A stretch of DNA of 64,000 nucleotides from positions 1-64,000 of the forward strand of contig NZ_FUWY01000005.1 in assembly GCF_900167375.1 (NCBI RefSeq), in the 5' to 3' direction. Below the pieces are notes generated by a model that had not been told where the DNA came from, did no database searches, and saw only the letters and a list, made by a program, of their open reading frames with translations. This document shows, piece after piece, positions 975 through 31,308 of the stretch (within the stretch, counting starts at the first letter, position 1; each line of letters opens with the position of its first letter). The position numbers were made by a program, and so were the translations under genes. The stretch comes from Anaerorhabdus furcosa (GTDB taxonomy: Bacteria > Bacillota_I > Bacilli_A > Erysipelotrichales > Erysipelotrichaceae).

Positions 975-1976
975 ATGAAAAAGATTAGAAAAGTTTTAAT
1001 TGCATTAGCATGTATGGCACTGGTAGGTTGCTCAAGTCAACCTGCACCAAAAAATGAAGAAGGTTCAAACTCAAGTACAGGTACAAAAAAGATTGGTGTT
1101 ATCCAATTAACAGAACATACTTCACTTAATATGATTTATGATAGTTTTGTAGCTGAATTAGAAAATTTAGGTTATGGTGCAGAGAAAGCAACAATTGATT
1201 TCAAGAATGCACAAAACGAAATGTCAAATATTCCAACAATTGTTCAATATTTTGATGCTAACAAACAAGATGTAGTTGTAACGATTACAACTCCAGTTGC
1301 TCAAGGTGCAATGTCATTAACTAAAAATACACCTGTAGTATTTGCTGCAGTTACTGATCCAATTGCTGCAAATGTTGTTAAAGATTTAGAAAAACCAGAA
1401 GGAAATATAACTGGAACAAGCGATATGGTTCAAATTGATGAAATCATTGATTTAGCCTTAACGATTAAACCTGAGATTAAAACAATTGGATTTATTTATA
1501 ATCCATCAGAAACAAATTCAGTATCAAACTATGAAAAACTTCAAGCGGTATGTGAAGAACGTGGCATTAAAATAGAAACTGCTTCCATATCAACGTCAAT
1601 TGATCTACAAACTGCTACAAGTGCATTACTTCCTAAAGTTGATGCAATCTTTGTACCAAATGATAATACAGTAGCTGAAGCGATGCCAGCTCTTTCAAAA
1701 CTTGCTAAAGATGCAAAAATTCCAGTATTCACTGGTGCTGATTCAATGGTTATGGATGGTGGATTTGCTACAATTGGTATTGATTATGTAGAGTTAGGAA
1801 AAAAGACTGCACAAATGGTAGTTGAAGTTTTAGAAGGAAAACCAACATCTGAGATTCCTGTCTATGTATTCAAAGATGATTTATACATTACAGTAAATGA
1901 AGATACAATGAACGCATTAGGAATTACATTACCAGAAGAAGTAGCAAACAATCCAAAACTCATGTTAGTAAAGTAA
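975..1976 (+). CDS. trpX: ABC transporter substrate-binding lipoprotein, TrpX-like
   Basis: This is the extracellular substrate receptor of an importer in the ABC_sub_bind (PF04392) group. The protein has 333 residues with a lipoprotein signal peptide; the lipobox LVGC puts the lipidated Cys at residue 19. A Ser/Thr/Asn-rich linker follows, then a two-lobed periplasmic-binding fold starting at IGVIQLTEHTSLN. It has a good ribosome binding site (AAGGAGAG) and is the first gene of a three-gene operon behind the T-box. Tryptophan as substrate is inferred from the TGG specifier and from related trpXYZ loci in streptococci. BMP-type nucleoside ligands cannot be excluded from sequence alone. Confidence 0.82.
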   Translation: MKKIRKVLIALACMALVGCSSQPAPKNEEGSNSSTGTKKIGVIQLTEHTSLNMIYDSFVAELENLGYGAEKATIDFKNAQNEMSNIPTIVQYFDANKQDVVVTITTPVAQGAMSLTKNTPVVFAAVTDPIAANVVKDLEKPEGNITGTSDMVQIDEIIDLALTIKPEIKTIGFIYNPSETNSVSNYEKLQAVCEERGIKIETASISTSIDLQTATSALLPKVDAIFVPNDNTVAEAMPALSKLAKDAKIPVFTGADSMVMDGGFATIGIDYVELGKKTAQMVVEVLEGKPTSEIPVYVFKDDLYITVNEDTMNALGITLPEEVANNPKLMLVK

Positions 1977-1985
1977 GGTGATTAG

Positions 1986-2867
1986 ATGTCTTTGAGTTTA
2001 GTAGTAGGAGCAATTGAATTAGGGATCATATTTGGAATATGTTCGCTTGGATTATTCATTGCATTTCGTGTGTTAAATTTACCAGATTTAACGGTTGACG
2101 GAAGTTTTGTAACAGGACTGGCATTTAGTGCGGTGTTTTCAATGCAAGGTCAACCACTGCTTGGAATTATTCTGGGTATTGTAGGTGGAACACTTGCAGG
2201 TATTGTTACTGGAGTTTTGCATACAAAATTTAAGATACAAGAAATACTTGCAGGTATTTTAACAATGACAGGATTGTATTCAATTAATCTTAAAATAATG
2301 AATGATCAACCAAGTATTTTCTTATATGGTATCGATACAATCTTTACACCATTTACAAACAAATTGGTGATACAAGGTGTAGATTTTGGTTATTTACTCG
2401 TCTTATTGTGTATTGCGATGTTGCTGATTGTGATTCTAGTTTTCTTCTTTAAAACGTTGACTGGATTAGCACTAAGAGCTACAGGTGATAATGAAGCAAT
2501 GGTACGTAGTTCATCAATCAATACAGACACAATGAAAATATTGGGATTTGCAATGACGAATGCCATTGTTGCGTTGGGTGGAGGTTTATATGCACAATAC
2601 ACGCAAACAGCAGCACATGGGGCGGGAGTAGGAACACTTGTCTTATGTTGCGCAAGTATCATCATTGGTGAAACAGTATTTGGTAAGCGAAGAGGAATGC
2701 TTCATCATATAGTATCTATTGTACTAGGTGCTATATTGTATCGTTTGCTACTATCGTATGCATTTGTTTTAGGATTACCCGCAAGTGATTTAAAACTATT
2801 CTCAGCACTTATCGTTGTCTTTGCAATGGTATTGCCTCAAATTAAATTGAGGAGGAAAAATAGATGA
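1986..2867 (+). CDS. trpY: ABC transporter permease, TrpY-like
   Basis: This is the integral membrane subunit of the T-box-controlled importer, 293 residues with about eight hydrophobic segments, of the branched-chain-amino-acid/BMP permease type. Conserved-looking stretches include VLNLPDLTVDGSFVTG near the N-terminus and LRATGDNEAMVRSSSIN, a probable coupling loop to the ATPase, near residues 165-180. It begins 9 nt after the trpX stop (AAGGTGATTAG before ATG) and overlaps trpZ by 4 nt, which implies translational coupling. Confidence 0.82.
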   Translation: MSLSLVVGAIELGIIFGICSLGLFIAFRVLNLPDLTVDGSFVTGLAFSAVFSMQGQPLLGIILGIVGGTLAGIVTGVLHTKFKIQEILAGILTMTGLYSINLKIMNDQPSIFLYGIDTIFTPFTNKLVIQGVDFGYLLVLLCIAMLLIVILVFFFKTLTGLALRATGDNEAMVRSSSINTDTMKILGFAMTNAIVALGGGLYAQYTQTAAHGAGVGTLVLCCASIIIGETVFGKRRGMLHHIVSIVLGAILYRLLLSYAFVLGLPASDLKLFSALIVVFAMVLPQIKLRRKNR

Positions 2868-3649
2868 TAGAAATAAAAAATTGCAATGTTATTTTTAATA
2901 AAAATACGGTGAATGAAAATCATGCACTAAAGGATATTAATTTAAGACTTGAAGATGGTGATTTTGTTACCGTTATTGGCTCAAATGGTGCAGGAAAATC
3001 AACATTACTAAATGTTATTTGTGGAAATATCGAAACTGAGTCAGGTGAAGTATTTATTGATAATCAAAATATCACAAAATTCAAAGAACATAAACGTGCT
3101 AATTGTATTGGAAGATTATCACAAGATCCTTTAAAAGGAACTGCTCCTCATATGACAATTGAAGAGAATTGTTTATTGGCATATGGAAGAGGAACAAAAC
3201 GAAAACTTAGATTTTCAATAAGCAAAGAAGAAAAAGAATTGTTTCATAATCAATGTGCTAAACTTAATTTGGGTTTAGAAGATCGAATGAAAACAGAAGT
3301 TGGATTTTTATCGGGAGGGCAACGCCAAGCATTGACTTTGTTAATGGCAACAATGATACCTCCACAATGCTTGTTGTTGGATGAGCACACAGCTGCACTT
3401 GATCCAAAAACAGCTGAAAATATTATGAAGATTACAAATGATATCATACAAGAGTATCACATTACGACACTCATGATTACACACAATATTGATCATGCAC
3501 TACACTATGGTAATAAAACAATTATCATGAATGAAGGACGTATTTTAGATATCATTGAAGGCGAACAAAGAAAATCAATGACAAAAGAAGATGTACTAAA
3601 ATACTATGAAAAGATTAATGGTGTTTTAACGGATAAACAAATTCTATAA
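2864..3649 (+). CDS. trpZ: ABC transporter ATPase, TrpZ-like
   Basis: This 261-residue protein is the cytoplasmic energising subunit of the importer. Walker A GSNGAGKST is at residues 39-47, the signature LSGGQRQA at about 150, Walker B CLLLDEHTAALDP at about 170-182, and the H-loop ITHNIDHA after that. Its start codon overlaps the trpY stop (ATGA), and a terminator follows. The operon therefore holds a complete receptor-permease-ATPase set. Confidence 0.85.
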   Translation: MIEIKNCNVIFNKNTVNENHALKDINLRLEDGDFVTVIGSNGAGKSTLLNVICGNIETESGEVFIDNQNITKFKEHKRANCIGRLSQDPLKGTAPHMTIEENCLLAYGRGTKRKLRFSISKEEKELFHNQCAKLNLGLEDRMKTEVGFLSGGQRQALTLLMATMIPPQCLLLDEHTAALDPKTAENIMKITNDIIQEYHITTLMITHNIDHALHYGNKTIIMNEGRILDIIEGEQRKSMTKEDVLKYYEKINGVLTDKQIL

Positions 3650-9990: not shown

Positions 9991-9995
9991 TACTG

Positions 9996-10218
9996 TGTCG
10001 ATGAAAAAGAGTAGTAACTCATTGGAAACTCAAAGAGAGCTCATGATGGTGGAATTGAGCAGTGGAAAATGGATGAAACGAGCTTTGGAGATTTATCCGT
10101 ATGACAGTAAGGATAATGTATTCCTGCATTAAAGGAAAGAGGTTAAGTAGGTAAACTATTTAGCAATTTGAGTGGTACCGCGGTTTAATATCGTCTCTTC
10201 ATATGAAGAGGCGTTTTT
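9996..10218 (+). promoter_or_regulatory. T-box riboswitch, arginine-specific
   Basis: This antitermination leader senses uncharged tRNA-Arg. Stem I has the 5' specifier-loop strand AGAGTAGTAAC (10009-10019), the distal signature AGAGAGCTC...GGTGGAA (10034-10054), and the 3' strand TGAAA followed by CGA (10079-10081), an Arg codon, and a G next to the basal CTTT. The T-box sequence GAGTGGTACCGCGG is at 10170-10183. The terminator CGTCTCTTC/GAAGAGGCG with T6 is at 10192-10218. The leader is followed by tRNA-Arg and then argS, which confirms the amino acid. Confidence 0.9.
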
Positions 10219-10284: not shown

Positions 10285-10361
10285 GCGCCCATAGCTCAAC
10301 TGGATAGAGCGTTTGACTACGGATCAAAAGGTTGCGGGTTCGATTCCTACTGGGCGCGCCA
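10285..10361 (+). tRNA. tRNA-Arg(ACG)
   Basis: This is a 77-nt cloverleaf with encoded CCA. The acceptor GCGCCCA pairs with TGGGCGC, D-stem GCTC with GAGC, and anticodon stem TTTGA with TCAAA. The anticodon loop CTACGGA gives ACG, which reads CGN through inosine. The T-stem GCGGG/CCTAC contains one C-A mismatch and one G-U pair. The discriminator base is G. Confidence 0.96.
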
Positions 10362-10402: not shown

Positions 10403-10419
10403 ATAAAGAGGAGATGTGT

Positions 10420-12060
10420 ATGAATAAAATTGAACAAAACTTAACAACTGCAATTAAAGATGTAGTAACAAAACTTTATGGGGAAATTGATGATTCTTTG
10501 ATTATGATTGAAATTCCAAAGGATAATACAAATGGAGATTATTCGACAAACATTGCAATGCGTTTAGCTAAAGTTGCTAAAAAAGCGCCTGCTATGATTG
10601 CGCGAGAAGTTGTAGAAGGATTAAAAGAAACAGTAAAAGATGCTGATAAAATCGAAATTGCTGGTCCTGGGTTTATTAACTTTTGGATGAAGAAAAGTGT
10701 TTTAGCAGATATCATCAATGTTGTTTTAGACAAAGGTGAAAAATATGGTGAAAATACAAGTGGTGATGATTTACATATTTTAGTTGAATATGTAAGTGCA
10801 AATCCTACTGGTGATCTTCATTTAGGGCATGCTCGAGGTGCTGCATGGGGAGATTGTATTTGTCGATTATTAAATAAGAGTGGATACAATTGCTTGCGTG
10901 AATACTATATAAATGATGCAGGAGCACAAATGATTAACTTAGGTAAATCAGTGTATTCACGTTATGCTGAAACCTTTGGTGTGAAAGTAGATATTCCTGA
11001 AGATGGTTATCAAGGACCTGATGTAGCTCAAATTGGGAAAGAACTTGCTGAAGAGTTAGGTGATCAATGGCTTAATAAAGAAGAAGGACGTATTGAATTC
11101 TTCAAAGAAAAAGGTCGTGAAAAAGAATTAGAAAAGATTAAAAAAGATTTGCAATATTATGGTTGTGAATTTGATTCATGGATTTCTGAACAATCATTAT
11201 ATGATAATGGTAGTGTAGATGAATGCATTGAAAAGATGAAAGACATGGGTCTTACATTTGAAGAAGATGGTGCTCTTTGGTTTAAGTCTACAAAATGGGG
11301 CGATGACAAAGATCGTGTACTTCGTAAGAGTGATGGAACGCTAACCTACCTAACACCAGATATTGCTAATCATATGGATAAATTCGCTCGTGGCTATACA
11401 AAACTAGTAAATTTATGGGGAGCTGATCACCATGGATACATTCCTCGTATGGTTGCCGCAATACAAGCTATGGGATATGGACCTACAGATTTAGAAGTAG
11501 ATATTATTCAAATGGTACGTCTTGTTGATGAAGGACAAGAAGTGAAGATGAGTAAACGTACAGGGAATGCGATTACAATTCGTGAACTTTGTGACGATAT
11601 TGGTGTCGATGCTGCACGTTACTTCTTTGTAAGTCGTGCTGTGGATACACATTTGGACTTTGATTTAGGATTAGCTCGTAAGAAAACAAATGAAAATCCA
11701 GTATATTATGCTCAATATGCTCATGCTCGTATGTGTTCAATCTTACGTAATGCACCTGAATTTAAGAAAGAAGACAACTATGATTTATTAGTAAGTGAAA
11801 AAGAAGTAGACTTACTTAAATACATTGCAGAATTTACAAGTGTTGTTGCAGATGCTGCAGCGACACGTTCTCCAAACAAGATTTGTAACTATGTTCAAAA
11901 GCTTGCGGGTTATTTCCATAGTTTCTATGGTGCTCACAAAATCATTGATGATTCAAATCCTGAACTAACAAATCAACGTCTTGGATTATTATTAGCTACA
12001 AAACAAACATTAGCTAATGCATTGGATTTAATTGGAATAAGCGCACCTGAAAAGATGTAG
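10420..12060 (+). CDS. argS: Arginyl-tRNA synthetase
   Basis: This class I aminoacyl-tRNA synthetase charges tRNA-Arg with arginine using ATP. The protein has 546 residues from the ATG at 10420; the upstream ATG at 10414 is too close to the AAAGAGGAG site. Visible features are the N-terminal Add1 region, the HIGH-equivalent GDLHLGHARG, the KMSKR signature (EVKMSKRTGNAIT) and a C-terminal DALR anticodon-binding domain. It lies behind the arginine T-box and tRNA-Arg and is followed by a strong terminator. Confidence 0.95.
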   Translation: MNKIEQNLTTAIKDVVTKLYGEIDDSLIMIEIPKDNTNGDYSTNIAMRLAKVAKKAPAMIAREVVEGLKETVKDADKIEIAGPGFINFWMKKSVLADIINVVLDKGEKYGENTSGDDLHILVEYVSANPTGDLHLGHARGAAWGDCICRLLNKSGYNCLREYYINDAGAQMINLGKSVYSRYAETFGVKVDIPEDGYQGPDVAQIGKELAEELGDQWLNKEEGRIEFFKEKGREKELEKIKKDLQYYGCEFDSWISEQSLYDNGSVDECIEKMKDMGLTFEEDGALWFKSTKWGDDKDRVLRKSDGTLTYLTPDIANHMDKFARGYTKLVNLWGADHHGYIPRMVAAIQAMGYGPTDLEVDIIQMVRLVDEGQEVKMSKRTGNAITIRELCDDIGVDAARYFFVSRAVDTHLDFDLGLARKKTNENPVYYAQYAHARMCSILRNAPEFKKEDNYDLLVSEKEVDLLKYIAEFTSVVADAAATRSPNKICNYVQKLAGYFHSFYGAHKIIDDSNPELTNQRLGLLLATKQTLANALDLIGISAPEKM

Positions 12061-22651: not shown

Positions 22652-23572
22652 ATGCAAGTAAATAAGAAGTATATCAAAAAAAATAAAACGATAGATTCAA
22701 TTTATAAATACTTCTTTATGGCGATGGCTATTCTAGCGAGTAGTTTCATAGTATTACTAGTTCTCTTTGTTTTCACAAAGGGAATTTCGCCATTTTTAAG
22801 TGGATATGAATATGGACAAGTTAACTTCTTTGATTTCCTGTTCGGGTTAACGTATCGTCAAGATAAAGGGATTTATGGTGTTGGTTTCATTATTATCAAT
22901 ACATTCATTAGTGCCTTTGCAGCATTAATTATTTCGTTTCCAATATCCGTATTAACAGCTTTATTTATCGTAAAAATAGCACCAAAGAATTTAAGTAAAG
23001 TCATGCAAACCATTGTTGAATTGCTTGCGAGTATTCCAAGTATTGTTTATGGGGTATTTGCAGGAGGTGTTATTACGGGAATTGTTAAAGATTTAGCACT
23101 ACTTTTTGGTGTTTCAACAGCAGGTGGATCAAGCTTATTAGCGGTAGTCATTTTATTAGCAATTATGATATTTCCAACAATTACATCACTTTCAATTTCA
23201 GCTATCCAAGCAGTCGACAAAGATTTAGAACAAGCTTCATTAGCTTTAGGTGCTACAAAAACACAAACTAATTTCAAGATTGTATTAATTGCAGCGAAAT
23301 CAGGAATATTTGCAGGAGCAATTTTGGGGATAGGACGTGCCTTTGGTGAAGCAACTGCAGTTGCAATGGTAGCGGGGAATAAGTTATTTGGTCCTACGTT
23401 TAACCCTTTTGATATTACGCGTACGCTAACGACAACAATGCTTGCGGGATTAAAAGAAACATCAGGATTAGATTATGATATTCGTTTCTCGGTGGGTTTA
23501 GTATTGATGGTTGTTATCTTTGTAAGTAATTACATCTTAAATCTTGTGAAAAAGAAAGTAGGTAATATGTAA
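22652..23572 (+). CDS. pstC: Phosphate ABC transporter permease PstC
   Basis: This 306-residue membrane subunit has six predicted helices. The coupling-loop sequence SLALGATKTQTNFKIVLIAAKSG and the GRAFGEATAVAMVAG stretch are typical of PstC. It starts 6 nt after pstS with only a weak ribosome binding site, which suggests coupling to pstS translation. It overlaps pstA by 1 nt (TAATG). Confidence 0.92.
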   Translation: MQVNKKYIKKNKTIDSIYKYFFMAMAILASSFIVLLVLFVFTKGISPFLSGYEYGQVNFFDFLFGLTYRQDKGIYGVGFIIINTFISAFAALIISFPISVLTALFIVKIAPKNLSKVMQTIVELLASIPSIVYGVFAGGVITGIVKDLALLFGVSTAGGSSLLAVVILLAIMIFPTITSLSISAIQAVDKDLEQASLALGATKTQTNFKIVLIAAKSGIFAGAILGIGRAFGEATAVAMVAGNKLFGPTFNPFDITRTLTTTMLAGLKETSGLDYDIRFSVGLVLMVVIFVSNYILNLVKKKVGNM

Positions 23573-24774
23573 TGAGTACAAAAATTAAAGACAAAATATT
23601 AAATACAATTACCTATTTTGCAAGCGGAATAAGTGTGTTTGTATTAGGTGCAGTTCTTGTATTCTTATTTTCAAAAGGATTTTCAACGTTAAATTGGGAT
23701 TTAATTGTAAATAACTATTGGAGTCAAAATCTTCTTGGAACTGTTGATTCAGTTGGTGGAGACTATACAATTTCAGAAGAAGTTGATGGTATCTATTCAG
23801 CACGTTGGGGTATTGCATTAAAAGATAATGTGAATTCTCAAAAAGAAAAAGTAATTGAAGTAACATATATTCATCCAGAATCACCATTAAAAACAATGCT
23901 TAGCTCATCAGCGGGGGATAACAACAAAGAAATTACTCTAGAAGATGGCTATACAATTCAAAAAATTGATATTGTTACTAGTGATGGAATTCCTACCTTT
24001 ACAGGCAAGATTATGTCACAAGATGCAGCAACTGTTATTAGCAACATTGACTCGGCGCAAAAAATTACAAGTATTTACTATAAAACAACAGGTGGAGGTA
24101 TTCGTAGTAGTTTGATTACCACATTGTATCTAATTGTAATTTCATTAGTTATAGCTTTACCAATAGGTGTATGTAGTGCAATCTATTTGCATGAATACGC
24201 ATCAAAATCAAAACTAAATAAACTAATACGTCAAGGAATCGAAACTTTAACTGGTGTACCAAGTATAGTTTATGGATTAATGGGAGTTACCGTTCTCTTT
24301 CCAGTAACACAATTATTTGGTGCAACAACAACCAGTATTCTTTTAGGTGGATTAACTATGTCAATCATTTTACTCCCTACCATCATGAAATCTACTGAAG
24401 AAGCATTGATTGTTGTACCACAAAGTTTAAGAGATGGAAGTTTATCATTAGGTGCTACAAAATCACAAACTATATTCAAAGTAGTATTACCTTGTGCTGT
24501 TAATGGAATTTTAACTGGCGTATTATTATCGATAGGTAGAGTAATTGGTGAATCGGCAGCTCTTATCTATACTATGGGAACATTTATTAATGACTCTCCA
24601 AAACTCTTATCGCAAGGAACCACTTTATCATTAATGATTTGGTCATTCATGTCAGGTGAACAACCAAACTTTGAATTAGCAAGTGCAATATCGATTATCA
24701 TATTAGTCATTGTATTGGTATTGAACTTTATCGTTAAAGCAATCGCAAAGAAGTTCACTAAGAATTTTGCCTAG
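23572..24774 (+). CDS. pstA: Phosphate ABC transporter permease PstA with a large external insertion
   Basis: This is the second membrane subunit of the Pst importer. The C-terminal half is standard PstA, with [15 protein letters not shown], the coupling loop [18 protein letters not shown] and [15 protein letters not shown]. At 400 residues it is about 100 longer than usual. The extra part is a hydrophilic segment at about residues 60-170 between TM1 and TM2, which should lie outside the cell. It might contact PstS or sense phosphate, but no domain was recognised in it. Confidence 0.9.
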
Positions 24775-24785
24775 AAAGGAAACTT

Positions 24786-25541
24786 ATGGAAACAAGTTTT
24801 ATTGTAAAAGATTTAGATTTATTCTATGGTGATAAACAAGCTTTAAAGAAAATCAACATGGAATTATATAAAAATAAAGTAACTGCATTTATTGGCCCTT
24901 CAGGATGTGGTAAATCAACTTTCTTGCGTTGCTTAAATCGTATGAATGATTTGATAGAAGGCTGTAAAATTGTAGGAACAATTGAAAAAGATGGTGTTAA
25001 TATTTATTCATCAAAAACAGATATTGTTGATTTGCGTACAAAGGTTGGAATGGTATTCCAAAAACCAAATCCATTTCCAATGAGTATCTTTGATAATGTT
25101 GCCTATGGACCACGTTGCCAAGGATTAAAAGATAAAAAACACTTAGAAGAGATAGTTACAAAAGCATTGAAACAAGCAGCGCTATATGAAGAAGTTAAAG
25201 ATCGTCTTAATGAATCCGCTCTTGGATTATCAGGAGGTCAACAACAACGTCTGTGTATCGCTCGTTGTATTGCAATGGAACCAGAAGTTATTCTAATGGA
25301 TGAGCCAACCTCGGCACTAGATCCAATTGCAACAGCAAAGATAGAAGAGTTAATTGAAGAATTAAAAAATGATTATACAATCATTATCGTAACACACAGT
25401 ATGCAACAAGCATCTCGTATTAGTGACTACACAGCTTTCTTCCTGTTGGGAGAAGTTGTAGAGTTCGATAATACAAAACTAGTATTTAGTACTCCAAAAG
25501 ATAAAAGAACAGAAGATTATATTACAGGGAGATTCGGATAA
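24786..25541 (+). CDS. pstB: Phosphate ABC transporter ATPase PstB
   Basis: This 251-residue cytoplasmic ATPase drives phosphate import. Walker A is GPSGCGKST (about residues 38-46), the Q-loop region [12 protein letters not shown] is diagnostic of PstB, the signature is LSGGQQQR, and Walker B is [13 protein letters not shown]. An AAAGGAAAC site precedes the ATG. The stop overlaps phoU by 1 nt. Confidence 0.96.
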
Positions 25542-26182
25542 TGACAAAACTTGATGAAAAATGTAGTTTAATTAAAGAGTGTGTAATGAAGATGGCTAAA
25601 CGAGTAGAAGATATGTATTCTATTTCTTTAGAAATCATGGAAACAGGAAATACTGAAGCAGCTTTAAAAGTAATTGAAATGGATAGCTTTGTGAATAGTG
25701 CGGAAGAAGAAATTAATGATCTAGCAATTGAAGCACTATGCCTATTATCACCAGTAGCAAGTGATTTAAGAAAAGTAATTACTGGAATTAAGATTGCTTC
25801 AGATTTAGAACGAATAGGTGACTATGCAAAGAGTATTGCAGGCTTTGTTGTGAGAAATGGTAAATTAAATAGCGAACTTGCAAGTATGGCTAAAGATTTA
25901 GGAGATGCATTCCTTGCAATGATTGATCATGCAATGGACAGTTATAATAAATCAGATGCAGTATGGGCAATGAGCATTCCAGAAGAAGATGCCCAAATTG
26001 ATAAAATTTATGATGAGATTGTTAAGTATCTTCAAGATAAAATCAGAAAGCAAGAAATGGCAGATGATATCATTCCAATACTAAGTATGTTGCGTAATCT
26101 AAAACGTGCTGGAGAACATACAAAGAATATTTGTGAACACACTATTTTTGAAGTAAAAGGACAACATATTGAATTTAACTAA
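25541..26182 (+). CDS. phoU: Phosphate signalling protein PhoU
   Basis: This 213-residue all-helical protein contains two PhoU repeats. ASDLRKVITGIKIASDLERIGDYAKSI is the metal-binding E/DxxxD repeat of the first half, and LRNLKRAGEHTKNICE that of the second. PhoU links Pst transport activity to the PhoR kinase. It is the last gene of the operon and is followed by a terminator; phoPR lies about 4 kb downstream on the opposite strand. Confidence 0.93.
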   Translation: MTKLDEKCSLIKECVMKMAKRVEDMYSISLEIMETGNTEAALKVIEMDSFVNSAEEEINDLAIEALCLLSPVASDLRKVITGIKIASDLERIGDYAKSIAGFVVRNGKLNSELASMAKDLGDAFLAMIDHAMDSYNKSDAVWAMSIPEEDAQIDKIYDEIVKYLQDKIRKQEMADDIIPILSMLRNLKRAGEHTKNICEHTIFEVKGQHIEFN

Positions 26183-26204
26183 GATACCGTAAGGTATCTT
26201 TTAG
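26181..26204 (+). terminator. pst operon terminator
   Basis: AAGATACC (26181-26188) and GGTATCTT (26193-26200) pair around GTAA and are followed by TTAGTTT. It overlaps the phoU stop codon. Confidence 0.75.
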
Positions 26205-26218
26205 TTTATGTACATAAC

Positions 26219-26247
26219 TTGACTTGATTGTAAAATAGAGGTATAAA
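26219..26247 (+). promoter_or_regulatory. mgtA promoter
   Basis: TTGACT (26219-26224) and TATAAA (26242-26247) are separated by 17 nt, placing the start at the 5' end of the M-box. Confidence 0.75.
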
Positions 26248-26252
26248 GAAGT

Positions 26253-26452
26253 TAGTATCAGTAGGTGAGGCTACCTTAGGGATACGGATTGCTGCCGCAA
26301 AATTGTGGAGACACGATGAGTTGGTCAACAGTCTATGTCGCATCAAGGCATAGAATAATGTAATAACATTGCCCTAAGAAGCTAAAGCTTGAATGATAAA
26401 GAACAGATCGTTTTTTCGAGTCCTTATCTACTGATAGGGACTTTTATATTTT
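26253..26452 (+). promoter_or_regulatory. M-box magnesium riboswitch (ykoK leader)
   Basis: The leader contains the M-box hallmark blocks GTAGGTGAGGCTACC, TTAGGGATACGGATTGCTGCC, GGAGACACGATG..GGTCAACAG and TGCCCTAAGAAGC. It ends in an intrinsic terminator: AGTCCTTATC (26419-26428) and GATAGGGACT (26433-26442) with TTTTATATTTT. M-boxes bind Mg2+ and favour termination when Mg2+ is plentiful. The downstream gene is mgtA. Confidence 0.93.
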
Positions 26453-26467
26453 AAGGAGGTGAGTTGT

Positions 26468-26560
26468 ATGAGTACAGGTGATCCGAAACCGAGTAAAACC
26501 AGGCATGATTATAATAAAATATGTTTCTTATACAACTCATTTTTGAATTCTAGAAACTAG
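26468..26560 (+). CDS. Leader ORF with DPKP motif before mgtA
   Basis: This 30-codon ORF follows a near-perfect Shine-Dalgarno sequence AAGGAGGTGAG (26453-26463), directly after the M-box terminator T-run. The peptide begins MSTGDPKPSKTRHDYN and ends without hydrophobic or signal features. The acidic-proline start (GDPKP) recalls MgtL of Salmonella (MEPDPTP), where Asp/Glu-Pro runs make ribosomes drop off at low Mg2+ and so raise mgtA transcription. The coding potential rests on the ribosome binding site and position; function is inference. It may also encode a short functional protein. Confidence 0.6.
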   Translation: MSTGDPKPSKTRHDYNKICFLYNSFLNSRN

Positions 26561-26600
26561 ATATTTTTAATAATGGTGCCTCAAAAAAGGAGGAATTATT

Positions 26601-29270
26601 ATGGTAAAGAAAATACTAGGTTTATTTATGCAACAAGCTTTTGTTGTTGAAGAAAAGATTCGCCAATCAACAAAGTTAGCTACAAGTGATTTATTGCGTG
26701 AAGTTGGCAATACATTAAATGGTTATACAAGCAACGAAGTAGAAACACAAAGAGAACGTTTTGGTGAAAATGTACTCATACATAAAAAAGAGGCGTCTAT
26801 TGCACAACTGATTTTTGAATCAATTAAAAATCCTTTTTCACTTGTATTGTTGACTCTTGCAGTCATTTCATTTTTCACAAAAGATTATGCAGCAGTGACA
26901 ATCATTGTATTGATGGTTACATTGAGTAGTATACTTGGGATTACGCAAGAATTAAAAAGCACTAAAGCTGTTGAACAACTTACAGAAATGGTTGAAACAA
27001 CAGTAACTGTTCAAAGAAAAGAAGATTTAGAAGTATCATCTCGCCAAGAAATACCAATGGATGAACTTGTTGTGGGAGATATTTTGTATTTATCTGCAGG
27101 AGATATAATTCCAGCAGATGTTCGTTTAATTCAAACAAAGGATTTCTTTGTTACACAATCAAGTTTAACTGGAGAAAGTGAACCAATTGAAAAATATGGA
27201 GATGCATTAAATGAAGAAGTAAAACAAATCTTAGAAGCAAATAATCTTGTTTTCATGGGATCAAATGTTGTATCAGGAAGTGCGACAGGTATTGTCCTAG
27301 CGGTTGGTAATGAAACAATGTTTGGTAATATTGCAAAGTCACTTCAAGAAAAATCAACTGTTACAAACTTTGAAAAAGGAATTAATTCTGTTTCTATGGT
27401 TTTTGTTCGATTTATGCTAATTATGGCACCGATTGTCTTTGTAATGAATGGTATTACAAAAGGAAATTGGTTGGAAGCATTCTTATTTGCAATTTCGATT
27501 GCAGTGGGTTTAACACCTGAAATGTTACCAATGATTGTTTCTGTAAACCTTGCAAAAGGTGCGATGGAAATGTCAAAGAAAAAAGTAATTGTTAAAAAAT
27601 TAAATGCTATTCAAAATTTTGGTGCAATGGATATTTTATGTACAGATAAAACAGGGACAATTACCCAAGATAAAGTTACTCTTAAGTATTATTTAAATAT
27701 TCATGGTGATGCAGATGATCGTATTTTAAGACATGGATTTCTAAATAGCTATTATCAAACTGGACTTAAGAATCTAATGGATCTTGCGATTATTTCTCAT
27801 GTTGATGAACTAGAACAAAAAGATTTGTTTAACAACTATCGCAAAATTGATGAGATACCTTTTGATTTTAATCGTAGAAGAATGAGTGTCGTGGTAGAAA
27901 ATATAAATACTGAGAAGTATCAATTAATTACAAAAGGCGCAATAGAGGAAATGATTTCTATTTGTAGCCATGCTGAGTACAATGAAGTGGTTGAAGAATT
28001 AAATGATAATTTAAAACAAGAAATATTGAATCGATGTTATGAATATAATGAAAAAGGATTTCGAGTTTTAGGTATTGCACACAAAAAATTAGATTTTACA
28101 TCACCACTAATTTCAGTTGAAGATGAGAGAGAGATGGTTCTACTAGGATTTCTTGCGTTCTTTGATCCACCTAAAGAAAGTACAAAAGATGCACTTCAAA
28201 TTCTTAATGAATATGGTGTAAGAGTTAAAGTGTTAACAGGGGACAATGATGCGGTAACTAAGTACATTTGCAATGAAGTAGGTTTAAATGTACAAAACTT
28301 TATGTTAGGTGAACAAGTTGAAGCCTTAAATGATGAAGAGTTACAACTCGTTGTGGAAGATGTGGATGTATTTGCAAAACTCTCGCCAGCACAAAAAACA
28401 AGAATTGTTCAACAACTCCATAAAAATGGACATACTGTAGGGTTTATGGGGGATGGAATCAATGATGCATCAGCAATGAAAGTTGCTGATGTGGGTATTT
28501 CTGTAGATTCAGCGGTTGATATTGCAAAAGAAAGTGCATCCATTATTTTACTTGAGAAAGATTTGATGGTTCTTGAAAAGGGTGTAGTAGAAGGAAGAAA
28601 GACATTTACCAACATCTTGAAATACATTAAAATTACAGCAAGCTCTAATTTTGGAAATATGTTTTCAGTATTAGCTGCAAGTGTATTTTTACCATTCTTA
28701 CCAATGATGCCTCTTCAAATACTTATCTTGAATTTGATTTATGATATTTCATGTACTGCAATTCCTTGGGATAATGTGGATGAAGAATATTTGAAAGAAC
28801 CACGTCAATGGGATGCAAAAGGAATTTCCAAATTTATGGTTTATTTTGGACCAACAAGTTCTATATTTGATATAATTACTTACTTAATTTTATTTTTTGG
28901 AATTTGTCCACTTGTATTTGGTGGAAGTTATGGAAGTTTGTCACCAGAAATGAAGATCTTATTTATTAGTATGTTTCAAACAGGATGGTTTATTGAAAGT
29001 TTATGGACACAAACATTTGTTATCCACATGTTACGTACTCAAAAAATACCATTTATACAAAGTAGAGCCTCACTAAAATTAATAGGTGGAACTTTATTTG
29101 GTATTGTAGTTGGAACGTTAATTCCAATGACTTTTGTAGGGAAGATATTGGATATGACAAGTGTACCTGCTTTATTCTTTGCCATTCTTATTGTTATAAT
29201 TATTTTCTATAATATTCTTACGTCATGTGTTAAGTATTTCTATATCAAGAAATACAGTCGATTATTATAA
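26601..29270 (+). CDS. mgtA: Magnesium-importing P-type ATPase MgtA
   Basis: This ATP-driven Mg2+ uptake pump (P3B type) has 889 residues. TGES occurs in SSLTGESEPIEKYG, the phosphorylated Asp in LCTDKTGTITQD, the hinge in MGDGINDASAMKVADVGIS, and the M4 motif LTPEMLPMIV is characteristic of MgtA/MgtB rather than calcium pumps. Ten membrane helices are expected. AAAGGAGG precedes the ATG. Control by the M-box and probably by the leader ORF supports Mg2+ as the substrate. Confidence 0.95.
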   Translation: MVKKILGLFMQQAFVVEEKIRQSTKLATSDLLREVGNTLNGYTSNEVETQRERFGENVLIHKKEASIAQLIFESIKNPFSLVLLTLAVISFFTKDYAAVTIIVLMVTLSSILGITQELKSTKAVEQLTEMVETTVTVQRKEDLEVSSRQEIPMDELVVGDILYLSAGDIIPADVRLIQTKDFFVTQSSLTGESEPIEKYGDALNEEVKQILEANNLVFMGSNVVSGSATGIVLAVGNETMFGNIAKSLQEKSTVTNFEKGINSVSMVFVRFMLIMAPIVFVMNGITKGNWLEAFLFAISIAVGLTPEMLPMIVSVNLAKGAMEMSKKKVIVKKLNAIQNFGAMDILCTDKTGTITQDKVTLKYYLNIHGDADDRILRHGFLNSYYQTGLKNLMDLAIISHVDELEQKDLFNNYRKIDEIPFDFNRRRMSVVVENINTEKYQLITKGAIEEMISICSHAEYNEVVEELNDNLKQEILNRCYEYNEKGFRVLGIAHKKLDFTSPLISVEDEREMVLLGFLAFFDPPKESTKDALQILNEYGVRVKVLTGDNDAVTKYICNEVGLNVQNFMLGEQVEALNDEELQLVVEDVDVFAKLSPAQKTRIVQQLHKNGHTVGFMGDGINDASAMKVADVGISVDSAVDIAKESASIILLEKDLMVLEKGVVEGRKTFTNILKYIKITASSNFGNMFSVLAASVFLPFLPMMPLQILILNLIYDISCTAIPWDNVDEEYLKEPRQWDAKGISKFMVYFGPTSSIFDIITYLILFFGICPLVFGGSYGSLSPEMKILFISMFQTGWFIESLWTQTFVIHMLRTQKIPFIQSRASLKLIGGTLFGIVVGTLIPMTFVGKILDMTSVPALFFAILIVIIIFYNILTSCVKYFYIKKYSRLL

Positions 29271-29304
29271 AACAAGTAGGTCAAATTGACCTACTTGTTT
29301 ATTT
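29269..29304. terminator. Bidirectional terminator between mgtA and phoR
   Basis: AAACAAGTAGGTCAA and TTGACCTACTTGTTT form a 15-bp stem with one loop base, flanked by A-run and T-run. It serves convergent mgtA and phoPR; the phoR stop codon lies in the stem. Confidence 0.85.
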
Positions 29305-30577
29305 TAATGACAAACTTTGTACCATGATTAAGATAATCAAATACTTCAATTGTACCATTGTGGAAATCAACACCATGTTTTACTATTGCTAATCCTAATC
29401 CAGTTCCTTCAATTTGTTTACTATGGGATTTATCACTGCGATAGAATCGTTCGAATACACGTTCTTTATCTTTATCATGAATACCAATACCATCATCTTT
29501 TACAATGATTTCAATGTAGCGAGGATAATCACGTACGCTTATCCATACGTGACCATTTTCGTAGTTATACTTAATCGCATTTTGTATTAAATTATAAATA
29601 ATTTCATAGATGATTTGACGAACAGCTAATCCTTTTACAGGGAGTGTTTCATCAATTAAGGATACTTTGGCTTTTGCAGCGTAATCTTCTAAGTTTCGCA
29701 ATACATTTTGAATAACTTCTTGATAGTTAATGGTTTCGAAATCAAGTTGTACATTTCCTTCGTCAAGTTTGGATAACTTGATAATGTCTTCGATGATTCG
29801 TAGTAATTGTTTCGACTCATCAACGATCTTTTGTGAGAAACCTTGTGTATTATCACCTTGGAGATTATTGGCCATTATTTCAGCATATCCTGAAATACTT
29901 GTAAGTGGTGTTTTTAGTTCGTGAGAAACATTAGCACTGAACTCTTTTCTTATTTTGTTGTGATAATTCATGTTTTCAAGTAAAGGCTGTAATTCGGGAT
30001 ATGTTTTGTTTGCAAGAGGGACATCCAAATTGAGATGATTTATAGGATCAACAATTTTCTGTGTTAGTATTCTTGCGATAATAAGACTAATAATGATGAC
30101 ACAAGCAAACATTAGTAAAATGGGCATCAATGATGAACCTAAAGTACTTAATAAAGTTTCTGAAGTTGTTGATAGGCGAAGGATATTGCCATCACTCAAC
30201 TTGATTGCATAATAGTACGTTGATTCATTCAATGTATCAGAATATCTTGAAGATCCAGCGTGACCATTTTCAAGTGCATTTATAAATTCAGGACGTGTTG
30301 AATGATTAGTCAAACTAGTTGGAGTGTATCTAGAATCCAAGATGACAGTCCCATCATTTTTAATAAGTGTAATTCTTGATTCAGAATAAAACTTAGTTTC
30401 CATGAAAGTAAGTGGATCTTGATTATAATAGGAAGCTAAATCTTCAGTTTCTCGAATAAGGGTTTGTTTCGTAGCGTTTTCTAAATCATTGTAGATAATG
30501 AAAGTACACAAAAAGTAAGAAATCGCTACTAGAACGATTGAAGTTATTGCGATACTTTGAAATATCTTTTTTTTCAT
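29291..30577 (-). CDS. phoR: Sensor histidine kinase PhoR-like
   Basis: This 428-residue membrane kinase has TM1 at about residues 7-28, an extracellular domain of about 125 residues and TM2 at about 155-178. A short linker leads to the HisKA box FSANVSHELKTPLTSISGYAE with the phospho-accepting His. The ATPase domain follows: N-box NLIQNAIKYN, G1 DDGIGI, F-box ERFYRSD, G2 GTGLGLAIVKH. It overlaps phoP by 4 nt. Assignment to phosphate sensing rests on the nearby pst-phoU operon and on the TTAACA repeats before phoP. Confidence 0.85.
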   Translation of the reverse strand: MKKKIFQSIAITSIVLVAISYFLCTFIIYNDLENATKQTLIRETEDLASYYNQDPLTFMETKFYSESRITLIKNDGTVILDSRYTPTSLTNHSTRPEFINALENGHAGSSRYSDTLNESTYYYAIKLSDGNILRLSTTSETLLSTLGSSLMPILLMFACVIIISLIIARILTQKIVDPINHLNLDVPLANKTYPELQPLLENMNYHNKIRKEFSANVSHELKTPLTSISGYAEIMANNLQGDNTQGFSQKIVDESKQLLRIIEDIIKLSKLDEGNVQLDFETINYQEVIQNVLRNLEDYAAKAKVSLIDETLPVKGLAVRQIIYEIIYNLIQNAIKYNYENGHVWISVRDYPRYIEIIVKDDGIGIHDKDKERVFERFYRSDKSHSKQIEGTGLGLAIVKHGVDFHNGTIEVFDYLNHGTKFVIKINK

Positions 30578-31248
30578 TCTTTATCCACCATTTTGTAACC
30601 AACACCACGAATTGTTTCAATATAGTCACTTGCGTGTTCAAGTTTGGAACGCAAGGTACGTATATGAACATCAACTGTTCTTGTTTCACCATAATAATCG
30701 TAACCCCAAATCTGTTCAAGTAGTTGATCACGAGTTAAAACAATGCCTTGATTTTCCATCAAGAGTTTTAGTAATTCAAATTCTTTTAGTGTTAAAACAA
30801 TTCTTTGATCTGCAAGGAGTACAAAATGACGTTGTGTATCAATTGTCAAATCTTTAAATGTGATGGTCTTAGATGGAGCAGGTTTATCTGTTCTTCTAAG
30901 CACCGCTTTCACTCTTGCTACTAATTCCATAATACCAAAAGGCTTCGTGATATAGTCATCAGCACCTAAGTCTAAACCTTGAACTTTATCATATTCACTA
31001 TTTTTAGCAGTCAATAAAATGACTGGAATATTCTTTGTTGTAATCGAAGATTTCAGTTGTTTTAAAATGGATAGACCACTTTCTCCTGGGAGCATTACAT
31101 CAAGTAGTATTAATTCGGGTTTTTCATCAGCAATAGCTGGATAAAAAGTCTTGGCATCACTAAACCCTCTGGCTTGAAAACCAGTGTTGTTTAGGGTATA
31201 AACAATCAGTTCCTGAATGTTTTGTTCATCTTCTATACAATAGATCAT
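30574..31248 (-). CDS. phoP: Response regulator PhoP-like (OmpR family)
   Basis: This 224-residue regulator starts at 31248 (MIYCIEDEQNIQEL) after AGGTGATGAT; a longer frame to 31293 has no better ribosome binding site. The receiver has the acidic pair EDE, the phosphoacceptor Asp in LILLDVMLPGESG and the Lys in ITKPFG. The C-terminal winged helix contains LTLKEFELLKLLMENQG and RTVDVHIRTLRSKL. It is the first gene of the phoPR operon and likely activates pst. Confidence 0.88.
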   Translation of the reverse strand: MIYCIEDEQNIQELIVYTLNNTGFQARGFSDAKTFYPAIADEKPELILLDVMLPGESGLSILKQLKSSITTKNIPVILLTAKNSEYDKVQGLDLGADDYITKPFGIMELVARVKAVLRRTDKPAPSKTITFKDLTIDTQRHFVLLADQRIVLTLKEFELLKLLMENQGIVLTRDQLLEQIWGYDYYGETRTVDVHIRTLRSKLEHASDYIETIRGVGYKMVDKE

Positions 31249-31308
31249 ATCATCACCTACCCATAGTTTACGTGTTTTGAGCACTAACTTCAATCATCCT
31301 TCTTTGAT

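Follow-up and report, generated by a model that had tools for sequence, protein, structure and literature searches.

How many layers of Mg2+ control act on mgtA in Anaerorhabdus furcosa, and what does the short open reading frame (ORF) directly upstream of that gene contribute? Within the window, the whole 64,000-nucleotide stretch that was analysed, an M-box, a terminator, an ORF with a strong Shine-Dalgarno (SD) sequence and mgtA follow one another on the mRNA (Table 1). An initial annotation had placed these elements, including a 30-codon ORF whose peptide begins MSTGDPKPSK, at positions at which all of them were recovered, and had proposed that a riboswitch and a ribosome-destabilising leader peptide are stacked on one transcript. 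It had missed a helix that buries the leader SD and start, an anti-SD hairpin on the mgtA SD, and a third helix that competes with them.

The locus and its leader ORF

The M-box score lies well above the gathering score of 44, as expected of a member of the covariance-model family; the copy in Table 1 is the sole RF00380 match in the genome. Its expression platform consists of an intrinsic terminator followed by a Mg2+ transporter gene, and the terminator scan of the region called 2 terminators where 0.2 were expected. One terminator arm alternatively pairs with 26243-26270 (inverted repeat I1), a pairing that is likely an antiterminator. A second intrinsic terminator was considered at the helix formed by regions 1 and 2, which has five U residues past its stem, and was rejected because the terminator scan made no such call.

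Table 1. Features of the M-box/mgtA leader, in window coordinates
Feature	Position	Strand	Basis
M-box (ykoK-type) Mg2+ riboswitch aptamer, RF00380	26250..26408	+	cmscan 98.6 bits, E 1.2e-20, full model 1-169
M-box intrinsic terminator, 11-bp stem, U-rich tail	26418..26443	+	terminator scan; arms GAGTCCTTATC-TACT-GATAGGGACTTTT
Leader-ORF SD AGGAGGTG	26454..26461	+	sequence; 8/8 match, SD score 8; 6 nt to ATG 26468
Region 1, leader SD and start	26455..26472	+	18-bp helix with region 2, -21.7 kcal/mol; fold z -3.55
Leader ORF, 30 codons, MSTGDPKPSKTRHDYNKICFLYNSFLNSRN, stop TAG	26468..26560	+	sequence; positional counterparts at most M-box/mgtA loci
Codons 4-8, GDPKP	26477..26491	+	P-site at codons 4-5 predicted to open mgtA SD (opening energies)
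Mid-leader capture arm, codons 12-15	26501..26512	+	pairs 26570-26581; duplex z -3.28, p 0.013; -13.9 kcal/mol
Region 2, end of leader ORF	26527..26544	+	pairs with region 1; inverted repeat I3
Region 3, anti-SD arm TTAATAATGGTGCCTC	26567..26582	+	pairs with region 4 (-11.8 kcal/mol) or mid-leader arm
Region 4, mgtA SD (AGGAGG 26588-26593) and start	26588..26602	+	sequestered by region 3 (fold)
mgtA, Mg2+-importing P-type ATPase	26601..29270	+	TIGR01524 1140 bits, cut-off 611

The leader stop lies 40 nt from mgtA, and the ORF has the position of an MgtL-type leader, being short, led by an SD and placed between the promoter and mgtA. Homology is another matter. Among 295 genomes of the order, no confident homologue of the 30-residue peptide was found other than itself, and weaker hits, at E 0.02-1, appear to be random; NCBIfam returned zero matches for the window leader and six other leaders, and Pfam nothing significant for the window leader. 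Neither NCBIfam nor the relatives gave a match to MgtL, and the two peptides cannot be aligned past the early acid-proline run. The expectation that GDPKPS would be conserved at the amino acid level in relatives, read literally, thus failed.

The surroundings of the unit were also recorded. The window mgtA shares 60% identity with Clostridium, compared with 45-54% with the M-box-linked mgtA of its own family; the sequence suggests that the M-box/mgtA unit may have been acquired by horizontal transfer. One flank carries the ORFs of a pst-phoU-like phosphate operon (22652-26182), the other, on the minus strand, a two-component pair resembling PhoR/PhoB (29291-31293); both were identified by eye. 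Mg2+ and phosphate uptake genes thereby adjoin over 22652-31293. Elsewhere in the window, a T-box (9992-10201) precedes tRNA-Arg(ACG) (10285-10361) and an arginyl-tRNA synthetase-like ORF (10414-12060), with arginine-deiminase-type genes downstream (ORF identities by eye); a T-box before a tRNA gene plus its cognate synthetase looks unusual. Another T-box (654-897) precedes an ABC operon (975-3649) of substrate-binding protein, permease and ATPase.

Leader ORFs at other mgtA loci

Sequence downstream of 27 M-boxes of the family was read, and those that precede mgtA were nearly always followed, right past the terminator, by an SD-led ORF of ~22-38 codons. A wider survey drew in loci from 392 additional genomes and from an mgtA-protein scan across 84,980 species. 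Leaders were then picked by a rule that ignored codon 2, namely an ORF of 12-60 codons within 400 nt whose best SD had six or more contiguous matches. Such strong-SD small ORFs occurred at 36 of 110 mgtA loci; dinucleotide shuffles gave them in 2.7% and the reverse strand in none (0/110). The scan also picked up E. coli mgtL (L158), an annotated leader. Codon 2 was Asp or Glu in 28 of the 36 leaders, whereas 254 genes taken as background gave 8.3% (p=8e-24) and shuffled ORFs 3.4%; p-values here are nominal because the loci share phylogeny, the clearest near-duplicates having been dropped and no tree correction applied. This codon is spelled GAC, GAT or GAA, and therefore the acidic residue appears to be chosen rather than a single codon. 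Position 4 is enriched in Gly/Glu and positions 5-6 in Ser.

Examples include MDEESSKCIDPLG and MEEGSSKVINPLG in Clostridium, MDPESSKGIK and MDPGSRRGIK in Clostridioides-type leaders, MDPESISSPDP and MESQSINSPEP in Lactococcus, MESQSINSPEPERP in L. cremoris, MDSGSDGSLK in Negativicutes, MDVENSGSSI in Fusobacterium and MEGDVQSSRR in Cetobacterium. Among the genera in which an M-box terminator comes before the leader ORF are Clostridium, Lactococcus and Fusobacterium. At further loci, leaders were present with no M-box hit (C. gallinarum L076, MEEGSSKVINS; L123, MDDDSCGSSD; L112, MDAGPERYQ), and the leader would therefore be the sole Mg2+ control there. The ORF was missing from some mgtA and many mgtE loci. 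Most counterparts carry an early Asp or Glu and no early proline; the window leader, with Ser at codon 2 and D5 of D5-P6-K7-P8 as its lone early acid, is atypical among them in sequence.

Past the first codons, the leaders diverge almost wholly even within a family, and their lengths range from 17 to 52 codons. Aggregate pN/pS over leader pairs was 0.58 and the third-position excess was not significant (p=0.054), so peptide-level selection is weak beyond the first codons. Ser5/Ser6 is almost always spelled AGT (codon 5 of the L072-L090 leaders: 16 AGT, 2 AGC, 0 TCN), a bias that suggests an RNA- or codon-level constraint beyond the peptide; in L072-L090, the AGT codons 5-6 often precede a GGCATAA-like stretch.

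Several loci depart from this general form. Tandem acidic-start leaders precede one mgtA at L078, L083 and L042 (in L083, MDGETAGRSL and MDTGSSGKTS). Genus g23 has an additional mgtA copy (L159-L161), whose leaders keep DDDPLG through synonymous changes. In the TGA-reading Mollicutes L148 and L150, the mgtA leader MVVS(G/S)YSERKLSD has a perfect 8-nt SD and a codon 2 that is not acidic. At the M-box-mgtE loci L066 and L068, a MDEG... leader ORF extends, in a different frame, over the SD and start of mgtE.

Competing helices and ribosome position

Folding of the window leader predicts three helices in competition: region 1 with region 2, region 3 with region 4, and the mid-leader arm with the anti-SD arm. 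The last of these is lengthened by 26516-26528:26552-26567 and is present in the modelled fold with a ribosome at codon 4-5. Across 37 loci, pairing between the mid-leader and the sequence immediately before the gene had a mean z of -2.07, compared with +0.09 for mismatched pairs (p=2.5e-10), and it reached p<0.05 individually at 20 of them. At four Clostridium loci, the helix is kept by two-sided compensatory changes, with own-pair energies of -15.5 to -18.4 and most cross-pairs weaker.

The cost of opening the mgtA SD was computed with secondary-structure models that leave aside pseudoknots, kinetics and Rho. An early version, with 42 nt masked over the initial codons, showed no effect across loci in general (15/43), and was replaced by single-ribosome footprints of 30 nt with shuffle controls. 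Ribosome-free, the window mgtA SD is sequestered by the anti-SD arm at an opening cost of 7.4 kcal/mol. A ribosome at codons 1-2 lowered this to 3.0 kcal/mol, one at codon 3 to 2.2, and ribosomes at codons 4 and 5 to 0.5 and 0.4. From codon 6 (4.1) the cost climbed back to 7.3-7.4 over codons 7-17; it was ~3 for a ribosome at codons 21-27 and 7.1 for one on the last codon. No shuffle matched this profile (0/300), and the low-cost stretch lay inside codons 3-6 for every footprint tested, with its exact edge moving by a codon, and did so too at 30 or 37 C and in longer context. The model gives what the earlier stall idea requires, as the SD is predicted to be most open with the ribosome exactly at G4-D5, before P6-K7-P8.

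Over 34 loci, a ribosome at codon 1 gave a median SD opening of 2.4 kcal/mol, one at codon 10 gave 6.2 and traffic through the leader 6.6, and the traffic-minus-initiation difference was +3.5 compared with -0.1 in shuffles (p=1e-13); the folding set was curated after the motif had been noticed, whereas the 110-locus scan rule was blind to codon 2. Outside the curated set, switch-like opening was seen at L050 (1.0 to 8.4), L148 (2.2 to 7.9), L106 (3.6 to 10.6) and L042b (0.5 to 3.4), and a weak switch at L178. There was no opening switch at L085, an mgtA locus outside the curated set, nor for the far-upstream first leaders of the tandem pairs (L042, L078, L083). Leaders at M-box-linked mgtE genes include an ORF in several cases and mostly have no clear SD-opening switch; the switch therefore tracks mgtA. 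Across loci, the codon at which the SD closes was uncorrelated with the position of the early acidic residue (rho 0.13, p 0.55). What sequence and computation show directly is that the elements exist, that they recur and that the modelled opening depends on ribosome position.

Proposed control and its relation to known systems

We propose two-layer control: M-box termination first, then a translational switch resembling MgtQ/MgtL, through which an early pause or drop-off would turn mgtA on. We consider this arrangement probable, with room for doubt. In the first layer, high Mg2+ would fold the M-box and the terminator would halt transcription, as is established for M-boxes. On read-through transcripts, a ribosome would initiate at the leader ORF. 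If it ran through the leader, regions 1 and 2 would re-pair and the 3:4 helix would cover the mgtA SD, leaving mgtA off. If it paused or dropped off within the first codons (approximately G4-D5-P6), region 1 would be blocked by the same or the next initiating ribosome; codons 12-15 would then be free to capture the anti-SD arm, and the mgtA SD would open and be translated. With the leader untranslated, the mgtA SD would stay closed. The early acidic and proline codons would confer sensitivity to low Mg2+, as in Salmonella MgtL/MgtQ. Leader translation, early pausing or drop-off and a low-Mg2+ trigger are what we infer. Of the initial claim of two-layer control, the leader slot, the strong SD, the early acidic start and the RNA switch recur at mgtA loci in comparative genomics and RNA modelling; GDPKPS, however, is unconserved and contains a single acid.

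The closest known system is Salmonella mgtQ, in the mgtC-mgtB intergenic region, in which Asp2/Glu5 codons and alternative stems release the mgtB ribosome-binding site (RBS) (PMC8092293). As in the window, a short ORF with early acidic codon(s) precedes an RBS held in stem 3:4, occupancy of region 1 leads to an alternative helix that frees the RBS, the target is a Mg2+-importing P-type ATPase, and the effect is on translation, which is predicted here (PMC8092293). In the window, the freeing of the mgtA SD by an early ribosome is an in silico result. MgtQ differs in having 8 codons and in lying within an operon under PhoP with no riboswitch, whereas the window leader has 30 codons, lies past the M-box terminator, has no sequence similarity to MgtQ and places its capture arm at codons 12-15. 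L31-dependent destabilisation of the MgtQ type goes with acidic codons 2 and 5, of which the window leader has Asp at codon 5 and Ser at codon 2.

Enterobacterial mgtL is likewise a leader ORF ahead of mgtA; it carries an early acid-proline run and is proposed to sense Mg2+ by ribosome destabilisation. Ribosomes drop off at its EPDP motif, with a toeprint that has Pro3 in the P site (PMC11282234). It differs in acting by Rho-dependent transcription termination and in having no M-box, and modelled SD opening for E. coli mgtL is high at every ribosome position (9.9-12.9). The parallel drawn with mgtL at the outset holds in part: the predicted target is translation of mgtA, as in Salmonella mgtQ, rather than transcription, as in mgtL. 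The models suggest that the window leader works like MgtQ/MgtL, which does not imply homology to them.

Other systems share single elements. Known transcriptional off-switches of the M-box type (RF00380) also place an aptamer and an intrinsic terminator before a Mg2+ transporter gene; such control stops at the terminator, whereas the window adds a predicted leader-ORF translational switch. In Mycobacterium tuberculosis pe20, an M-box and then small ORFs precede a Mg2+-linked operon, but the M-box itself controls uORF translation and Rho termination, the conserved peptide is unrelated and the target is not mgtA (PMC12810186). Ribosome position on a leader ORF also sets target SD exposure in ermC/ErmCL, which differs in cue, gene and peptide, as ErmCL stalls on an inducer-dependent arrest peptide.

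Early acidic residues destabilise ribosomes and cause drop-off in MgtL and MgtQ (PMC11282234, PMC8092293), and low Mg2+, acting once the M-box lets RNA polymerase pass, is therefore the likeliest cue. The same ribosome-position switch could instead answer to prolyl-tRNA charging or EF-P at P6/P8, to ATP/ABC-F status or to polyamines, with the M-box as the sole Mg2+ signal. The structural switch is independent of its cue, DPKP with its single acid is closer to a proline-type pause, and the ABC-F protein EttA acts on the EPDP motif of MgtL. However, most counterparts have the early acid without an early proline, and all genes concerned import Mg2+, even at loci that lack an M-box; we regard a cue other than Mg2+ as unlikely. 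A plainer role, in which the leader ORF serves as constitutive translational coupling or mRNA protection and the M-box does all the regulation, appears more doubtful still. It would fit the short distance from leader stop to mgtA, the reduced opening cost at codons 21-27 and leader stops 14-20 nt from the gene at L041, L051, L067 and L094, yet a ribosome on the last codon leaves the mgtA SD closed, and coupling leaves unexplained the acidic codon 2, the complementarity of mid-leader and anti-SD, and closure of the SD at codons 8-17.

The strong SD could instead serve a small functional protein, such as an MgtR/MgtS-like modulator of MgtA, and a conserved mycobacterial small ORF with no assigned role does lie downstream of an M-box (PMC12810186). 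The near-total divergence of the leaders, their variable lengths, the lack of any NCBIfam hit or significant Pfam hit and the commitment of much of the ORF to base pairing make such a protein very improbable. Least credible of all is that the leader RNA is structured and the ORF within it arose by chance: a peptide without a homologue and the AGT bias at codons 5-6, pointing to RNA constraint, would suit it, but neither the excess of ORFs over shuffles nor the acidic codon 2, written with both Asp codons and GAA, would be expected of it.

Across 5.39 million open-access full texts, no leader-ORF switch downstream of an M-box and before mgtA was found, and an M-box plus uORF was found in Mycobacterium only, in a different arrangement (PMC12810186); subscription papers lay largely outside this search, and novelty is therefore provisional. 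The combination had been put forward as new: it is absent from the literature searched, but it is widespread rather than unique to A. furcosa. We give about even weight to the broader reading that translational switches before mgtA that are gated by ribosome position and have a leader peptide with an acidic start (M-[D/E]-x-[G/E/S]-S) form a widespread, previously unrecognised class of Mg2+ sensor in Firmicutes (also in Fusobacteriota, some Mollicutes and probably Bacteroidota and Actinobacteria), stacked on M-boxes at many loci and alone at others, with enterobacterial mgtL/mgtQ as functional counterparts of the same solution. If this is true, unannotated small ORFs would be predicted at dozens of loci, and the debated destabilisation of ribosomes by early acids at low Mg2+ would become testable in many species, among them Lactococcus cremoris, which is a laboratory organism. 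Ribosome-based Mg2+ sensing would then not be confined to enterobacteria; it would recur at Gram-positive mgtA genes, often downstream of a classical Mg2+ riboswitch, where aptamer and ribosome would form an AND-gate on a single mRNA.
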